The position numbers and the translations under genes are program-made. 32,459 nt of DNA from contig JACQQI010000001.1 of the NCBI GenBank assembly GCA_016207115.1, forward strand, positions 1 through 32,459, read 5' to 3'. Numbering within the stretch: position 1 is the stretch's first letter; the number at the start of each line of letters is the position of its first letter. The notes under the pieces are model-generated. The model was not told the origin of the DNA. It did no database searches and saw only the letters and a list, made by a program, of their open reading frames with translations. Source of the stretch: Candidatus Nealsoniibacteriota bacterium. Its GTDB lineage: Bacteria; Patescibacteriota; Minisyncoccia; Minisyncoccales; GWA2-46-15. This document shows, in pieces, positions 7,132-8,568 of the stretch.

Positions 7132-8169
7132 TCAGAACTGTTCCAAAAATCTTAAGTTGCCCGAGTTGAAAAGGCGGATGTCGTCGATTTTATACTTCAT
7201 CATGGCCAGCCGGTCCCAACCAAAGCCGAAAGCCCAGCCCTGCCACTTTTCCGGATTCAGGCCGGAGAATCGCAAAACATTGGGGTGGACCAAACCCGCC
7301 CCGGCCACTTCCAACCAGCCCGTCTTCTTGCAGACCGGACAGCCCCGGCCCGAACAGGTCAGGCAGGTCATGGCCACGTCAAAAGAGGGCTCGGTGAAAG
7401 GGAAAAAGTCGGGCCGCAGCCTGAATTCCAGGTTCTTCCCGAAGAACCTTTTCATGAATTCGGCGATGACGGCTTTAAAGCTGGCGGCGGAAACTTTTTT
7501 GTCTACCATCAGTCCTTCGAGCTGATAAAACTGAGATTCGTGAGAAGCATCGGTTGCTTCGTAACGGAAAACCTTGCCCGGAACGATGATTCTTAAGGGC
7601 GGCGGGTGTGCTTCCAGATACCGCGCCTGCACCGGGCTCGTGTGGGTTCTCAAGAGCAGTTTGGTGGATTCCGGACTTTTGATCCAGATGGTGCTCCAGG
7701 CGTCTCGCGCCGGATGATCTTTGGGAATGTTCAGGGCGTCAAAGTTATACCATTCGTTCTCCATCTCCGGACCCGCAGCAACAACAAAGCCCATCGAAGC
7801 GAAGATGGCCATGATTTCCCTTTTTGTTTGAGTCAGGGGGTGCAGGTGGCCAATCTCGGGTTTCCGCCCCGGCCGATCCAGATCGAATCGGCTCGGTTCC
7901 GCCTTCTTTGCTCCACCTTTTACCCGAGCCAAGATGGATTTCTTTTGAGTCAGAATCTTTTCTAAATATTTTTTCAACTCGTTCATCTTTTGGCCCATTC
8001 CTCTTCTCTGTTCTTCGGACAAGTCCTTTAATTCTTTAAAGAGCAAAGCGATCTGGCCTCGTTTACCCAGGTAAGAATGAAAAATCCGCTCCAGATCGGC
8101 ACGATTTTGGGCGGCCCGAATTTCTTTTTCTGCCTTTTCTCGAACTATTTTGAGGTCAATTTCGGTCAT
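7132..8169 (-). CDS. pheS: Phenylalanyl-tRNA synthetase alpha subunit
   Basis: HPLTQTKREIMAIFASMGF, TEPSFDVAMTCLTCSGRGCPVCKKTGWLEVAGAGLVHPNVL, GFGWDRLAMMKYKIDDIR. Confidence 0.97.
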   Translation of the reverse strand: MTEIDLKIVREKAEKEIRAAQNRADLERIFHSYLGKRGQIALLFKELKDLSEEQRRGMGQKMNELKKYLEKILTQKKSILARVKGGAKKAEPSRFDLDRPGRKPEIGHLHPLTQTKREIMAIFASMGFVVAAGPEMENEWYNFDALNIPKDHPARDAWSTIWIKSPESTKLLLRTHTSPVQARYLEAHPPPLRIIVPGKVFRYEATDASHESQFYQLEGLMVDKKVSAASFKAVIAEFMKRFFGKNLEFRLRPDFFPFTEPSFDVAMTCLTCSGRGCPVCKKTGWLEVAGAGLVHPNVLRFSGLNPEKWQGWAFGFGWDRLAMMKYKIDDIRLFNSGNLRFLEQF

Positions 8170-8317: not shown

Positions 8318-8391
8318 CGCGGCCGACCGGGCTCGAACCGGCAACCTCCGCCGTGACAGGGCGGCGATCTGGCCAATTGATCTACGGCCGC
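8318..8391 (-). tRNA. tRNA-Asp(GTC)
   Basis: Cloverleaf: GCGGCCG/CGGCCGC acceptor, D arm GATC-AATTGGCCA-GATC, anticodon arm CCGCC-CTGTCAC-GGCGG, T arm GCCGG-TTCGAGC-CCGGT. Confidence 0.93.
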
Positions 8392-8408: not shown

Positions 8409-8479
8409 TGCCGGGGGCAGGAATCGAACCTACGTTGATCGCTTATGAAACGACCCTAGACGCCAATCTACTCCCCGGC
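8409..8479 (-). tRNA. tRNA with CAT anticodon (elongator Met or Ile2)
   Basis: GCCGGGG/CCCCGGC acceptor, anticodon arm GTCGT-TTCATAA-GCGAT, T arm GTAGG-TTCGATT-CCTGC; short 71-nt body. Confidence 0.8.
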
Positions 8480-8496
8480 CCGTGTTAAATTGAATG

Positions 8497-8568
8497 TTGC
8501 GGGGGACCGAATTGCACGGTCGATCTCCAGCTTATGAGGCTGGCGAGATACTACTTCTCTACCCCGCG
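8497..8568 (-). tRNA. Initiator-like tRNA-Met(CAT)
   Basis: CGCGGGG...CCCCGCAA gives the C1xA72 mismatch typical of bacterial initiators; D stem GAGA/TCTC with A11:U24; anticodon arm CCAGC-CTCATAA-GCTGG. Confidence 0.8.

Follow-up and report, generated by a model that had tools for sequence, protein, structure and literature searches.

An A18:G55 exchange in the elbow of the initiator tRNA of a Patescibacteria genome and its relatives

In descriptions of tRNAs, G18 and U55 (the latter as Psi) count as near-universal, and TruB is described as near-universal in life. The window analysed here, a whole stretch of 32 459 nt forming one 32-kb contig of a Candidatus Nealsoniibacteriota genome, contains a tRNA-Met gene that carries marks of an initiator, and has A18, G55 and an anticodon stem without its three consecutive G:C pairs (3GC). 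Two questions are raised by this locus: whether the gene is a genuine initiator, and whether the contact between its D- and T-loops (the elbow) has been lost or replaced.

Identity and setting of the initiator gene

Read 5' to 3' from position 8568, the gene is composed of CGCGGGG UA GAGA AGUAGUA UCUC G CCAGC CUCAUAA GCUGG AGAUC GACCG UGCAAUU CGGUC CCCCGC A A (table 1). Both ARAGORN, which calls tRNA-Met(CAT) at 8496-8568 (-), and Rfam RF00005 (56.3 bits, E 9e-10) recognize a tRNA. The gene scores 95.6 bits with a covariance model of our own, run on relatives and on the phylum, for which initiators lie mostly above 69 bits and elongator Met tRNAs below 67. It belongs to a cluster ordered tRNA-fMet, tRNA-Met, tRNA-Asp, pheS, in a 476-kb genome assembled in 27 contigs and 87% complete; the closest relative of PheS is found in Ca. 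Wildermuthbacteria (70% identity), which assigns this ultra-small bacterium to Parcubacteria (Patescibacteria).

Table 1. Coordinates of the initiator tRNA gene, its altered parts and the neighbouring genes in the window.
Feature	Position	Strand	Description	Evidence
Initiator tRNA gene	8497..8568	(-)	C1 = 8568, A73 = 8497, CCA not encoded	sequence, ARAGORN, Rfam, covariance model
Initiator D-loop	8549..8555	(-)	AGUAGUA, 7 nt (A14 G15 U16 A18 G19 U20 A21)	sequence; conserved among relatives
Initiator T-loop	8510..8516	(-)	UGCAAUU (U54 G55 C56 A57 A58 U59 U60), GNRA-like GCAA replacing UNR	sequence
Initiator anticodon arm	8527..8543	(-)	CCAGC CUCAUAA GCUGG, 3GC changed to A:U / G:C / C:G	sequence; phylum tabulation
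Elongator-type tRNA-Met(CAU)	8409..8479	(-)	adjoining initiator; A8, 6-nt D-loop with GG, UUC T-loop	ARAGORN; Rfam 37 bits
tRNA-Asp(GUC)	8318..8391	(-)	canonical elbow	ARAGORN, Rfam
pheS	7132..8169	(-)	downstream of tRNA cluster	Pfam PF01409 E 3e-92

The two initiator marks named in the initial annotation were confirmed by direct reading of the sequence: the end of the acceptor stem has no Watson-Crick pair (C1xA72), and purine 11 faces pyrimidine 24 (A11:U24). Among the 139 Patescibacteria initiators that were tabulated (129 of them distinct), C:A is the commonest state at 1:72 (62/139) and A11:U24 is found in 124. No second initiator was detected in the genome at its 87% completeness, which holds only two CAT tRNAs; likewise, the covariance model retrieved a single initiator per genome in 50 of the 60 genomes of the order sample. 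In two of the remaining 10 (G008 and G023), the initiator is split by a group I intron. These introns (Rfam RF00028; L372 230-429 and L373 1343-1570) lie inside the anticodon loop of an A18:G55 initiator, and the genes that they interrupt were overlooked by the tRNA finder.

As its stems are fully paired and it is conserved across dozens of families, the gene is not considered a pseudogene. The incompleteness of the assembly would leave room for a canonical initiator within the missing 13%, the present gene then being a degenerate extra copy; we hold this to be very improbable, given the complete pairing of the stems, the 56 bits obtained with RF00005, and the occurrence of the same elbow in the sole initiator of near-complete sister genomes such as G001. 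The gene is thus predicted to be the single functional initiator tRNA of this Parcubacteria (Patescibacteria) genome, and would be active in initiation.

The formyltransferase domain (PF00551) was not found in the genome (87% complete). It is present in sisters G001, G002 and G005 and in 28/60 genomes across the order sample, where it accompanies 15/26 C1 initiators versus 6/24 others (p = 0.025), a suggestive indication that position 1 may be tied to the presence of formyltransferase. As a separate observation, U33, a near-universal residue, is replaced by C33 (loop CCCAUAA) in 33 of the 139 phylum initiators.

Anticodon stem, IF3 and 16S rRNA

The anticodon stem CCAGC/GCUGG had been annotated as lacking 3GC at 29-31:39-41, and indeed it presents A:U at 29:41, G:C at 30:40 and C:G at 31:39. 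The accompanying statement that such variants are rare does not hold in this phylum: 3GC is missing in 119/139 initiators and intact in just 20/139, and is therefore not a defining character of Patescibacteria initiators. The alteration is unequally distributed among the three pairs, 29:41 being A:U or U:A in 105 initiators and 31:39 other than G:C in 40, while G30:C40 is kept in 138/139.

IF3 was detected in 58/60 genomes of the order sample, and most relatives with a complete 16S gene have conserved strings near 790 and 1338/1339. Together with the tabulated stems and general knowledge of the P site, this suggests that the ribosome of these bacteria reads chiefly G30:C40. Initiator identity would then depend on three features, namely the lack of pairing at 1:72, A11:U24 and the retained central G30:C40; IF3 and the unaltered 16S positions around 790 and 1338/1339 would read them. 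The two flanking pairs, 29:41 and 31:39, would be dispensable in this phylum, over much of which 3GC is reduced to the single pair G30:C40. Elsewhere in the 16S rRNA, h31 positions 966-967 are [GA]A in 11/11 relatives (L302-L312), with A966 in sisters G001 and G005.

Plastid and mycoplasma initiators are also 3GC variants. Initiator-like tRNAs of phages and rhizobial plasmids share A29:U41 and a non-canonical 31:39 with the present gene, and those of a Shinella plasmid and of Vibrio phage D69 have an identical CCAGC/GCUGG stem. However, the six phage and plasmid tRNAs that were read all differ from it in their unchanged elbow, with GG in the D-loop and UUC (TTC in the gene) in the T-loop. Since the same stem occurs with a normal elbow, the loss of 3GC and the change of the elbow are separable.

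Compared with the canonical bacterial tRNA-fMet (E. coli / B. subtilis), the gene shares the unpaired 1:72, A11:U24, the CAU anticodon and G30:C40, together with U54, C56, A58, G19 and G15:C48. In contrast, G18 is replaced by A and U55 by G, the D-loop has 7 nt, 3GC is cut to G30:C40, and CCA is not encoded.

Positions 18 and 55 of the elbow

In published reviews, G18 and U55/Psi55 are presented as conserved residues, or as universally conserved ones (PMC4810234, PMC7912444). The D-loop without GG and the G at position 55, both noted in the initial annotation, are indeed present in the sequence. When aligned with the shortest canonical layout, which it matches, the D-loop shows a single changed contact residue, number 18, and on the T-loop side of the elbow residue 55 alone differs. 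G19 still faces C56, a combination also retained in relatives with the same change, and A14 and G15 (partner C48) are kept. Because only residues 18 and 55 differ, the change amounts to the exchange of one tertiary pair, G18:U55 for A18:G55.

This exchange is widespread and always complete. Indeed, the 139 initiators divide into 68 with A18 and G55, 71 with G18 and U55, and none with a mixed state (raw counts, kinship ignored). The swapped form represents 45/50 initiators of the same order and 21/85 in the phylum sample, again as raw counts in which kinship is ignored, and swapped and canonical initiators coexist within single families (e.g. f2 and f90). A57 accompanies the swap in 68/68 cases, versus 16/71 of the unswapped initiators. 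Chance, a sequencing error (raised in the initial annotation) and an assembly error can practically be dismissed, given the frequency of the swapped form in the order and the recurrence of the same loops in dozens of independent assemblies. A blastn search with the tRNA overlooked same-genus initiators that the covariance model recovered, so that absence in blastn reflects its sensitivity.

Outside the phylum, the swap was absent from the initiators that were read in a small outgroup sample (Bacilli, Anaeroplasma, a deltaproteobacterial MAG and an Omnitrophus SAG), all of them GG/TTC. A literature search, with most subscription journals outside its scope, returned nothing on A18/G55, on a T-loop purine trap or on the initiator tRNA of Patescibacteria/CPR, which gives a weak indication that the swap may be new to the literature.

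A18 and G55 each disrupt the textbook G18-Psi55 contact, and the initial annotation had accordingly seen a correlated loss of both sides of the elbow. The loops could then be out of contact, as in some mitochondrial tRNAs, with a ribosome that tolerates a loose initiator. The correlation is upheld by the tabulation, but outright loss is not: had the contact been lost, each position would be free to vary on its own, whereas 18 and 55 change jointly without exception, and G19/C56, A14, G15/C48 and U54/A58 are retained in nearly all 68 swapped initiators. A true loss of the elbow therefore seems unlikely. Instead, a compensatory double switch, in a sole functional initiator whose loops dock via an alternative A18:G55 pair, is in our judgement the likely explanation of the whole, and the swap can be regarded as a naturally occurring form of the tRNA elbow that is putatively compensated.

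According to this explanation, A18:G55 would take the place of G18:U55, with G19:C56, G15:C48 and U54:A58 unchanged. We infer this docking geometry from the linkage of positions 18 and 55 alone. The UNR turn of the T-loop (U55-C56-R57) would become GNRA-like (G55-C56-A57-A58), by which the same sharp backbone turn may be achieved, and A18, devoid of the 2-amino group of G, could make room for the larger G55 in the gap that separates residues 57 and 58. The canonical elbow (G18-Psi55 and G19-C56; PMC4810234, PMC7912444) thus has in common with the one proposed here its interloop pairs, G19:C56, and a purine 18 that could insert between residues 57 and 58; it differs in that 18:55 is here A:G and in that the turn is GNRA-like. 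Psi55 is impossible in this tRNA, since position 55 is not a uridine.

Initiators are not alone in carrying the exchange. In the same genome, three elongators also combine A18 with G55, namely those for Cys, Gly(GCC) and Pro(UGG); in the remaining tRNAs G18 goes with U55, except for two Val tRNAs that have C55. Sister genome G001, read almost whole, has the same combination in tRNA-Cys, His and Pro(GGG), and it reappears in the elongator Met of G020 and in Thr(UGU) of G024. Seven kinds of elongator tRNAs are thereby concerned, with both bases changed every time and no G55 elongator lacking A18. Because the divergence of these tRNA types is ancient, several origins of the joint change have to be assumed, and this recurrence supports a real pair more firmly than counts within one gene tree. 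The second elbow pair is itself exchanged in G001, as C19 with G56 in Leu(UAA) and A19 with U56 in Asp. These same-genus variants, like the C55 tRNAs, are also compensated or relaxed, but at 19:56 or at 55 alone.

The distribution among elongators also bears on the idea that A18:G55 is a mark of initiator identity, barring the tRNA from elongation or suiting altered contacts with IF2, the ribosome or RNase P. The idea is consistent with the frequency of the swap among initiators of the order when most elongators are canonical, and the 18-55 pair of the P-site tRNA reportedly matters for translocation (Pan et al. 2006, cited in PMC4810234). However, the swap is shared by Cys, Gly, Pro, His, Thr and elongator Met tRNAs, and initiators with a normal elbow are interspersed among relatives. 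We consequently abandoned an initiator-specific mark as the main reading and give it a rather low probability. The compensatory double switch would rather be a route that every kind of tRNA in these bacteria can take; it would have become fixed in the initiator throughout most of the order, with scattered occurrences in other cases.

TruB and the spread of the exchange

TruB, the Psi55 synthase, was found in 14/14 control genomes and 125/193 genomes of the phylum sample, versus 11/60 relatives from the order; it is missing in the other 49/60, including several listed as 100% complete. For the genome studied here, 87% complete, the gene could sit in the missing part. In the genomes sampled, elongators with C55 or G55 (17, i.e. 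18 rows minus one misfiled initiator) all belong to TruB-less genomes, with 0/43 in genomes having TruB (p about 0.03, two sister genomes dominating this result). By contrast, the initiator swap shows no association with TruB absence genome by genome, either in the order (37/8 for swapped versus 4/1 for unswapped initiators, p = 1) or in the phylum (10/11 versus 22/42, p = 0.31). On these samples, the idea that TruB loss directly produced the swap in initiators was rejected. The presence of an association for elongators and its absence for initiators point to TruB loss as a permissive background rather than a cause: by relaxing the need for U55, it probably helps the swap without being required.

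Whether Patescibacteria have extensively and repeatedly replaced G18-Psi55 by a purine-purine A18:G55 pair and a GNRA-like turn, eased by the loss of TruB, appears to us an evenly balanced proposition on these comparative data. If true, it would constitute a natural demonstration that both sides of the elbow contact can be exchanged together, the initiator being the tRNA in which the exchange is most widely fixed. A large and mostly TruB-less clade that swaps its elbow would make the requirements for this contact in folding, P-site selection and translocation directly testable. Search models that expect GG/TTC under-score such genuine tRNAs.

Several other tRNA genes deserve mention. In L036 (G000:C1:2858-2934), the D and T arms are normal and ARAGORN reads no three-base anticodon from the anticodon arm. 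A tRNA-Ile with anticodon UAU, rare in bacteria, is present at L001 (G000:C10:7677-7749) and also in G001. Finally, the low-scoring tRNA-Met adjoining the initiator combines A8 with G9, a UAGA/UCUA D-stem and a D-loop devoid of A14, and similar genes exist in relatives G021 (L131), G054 (L140) and G016 (L149).
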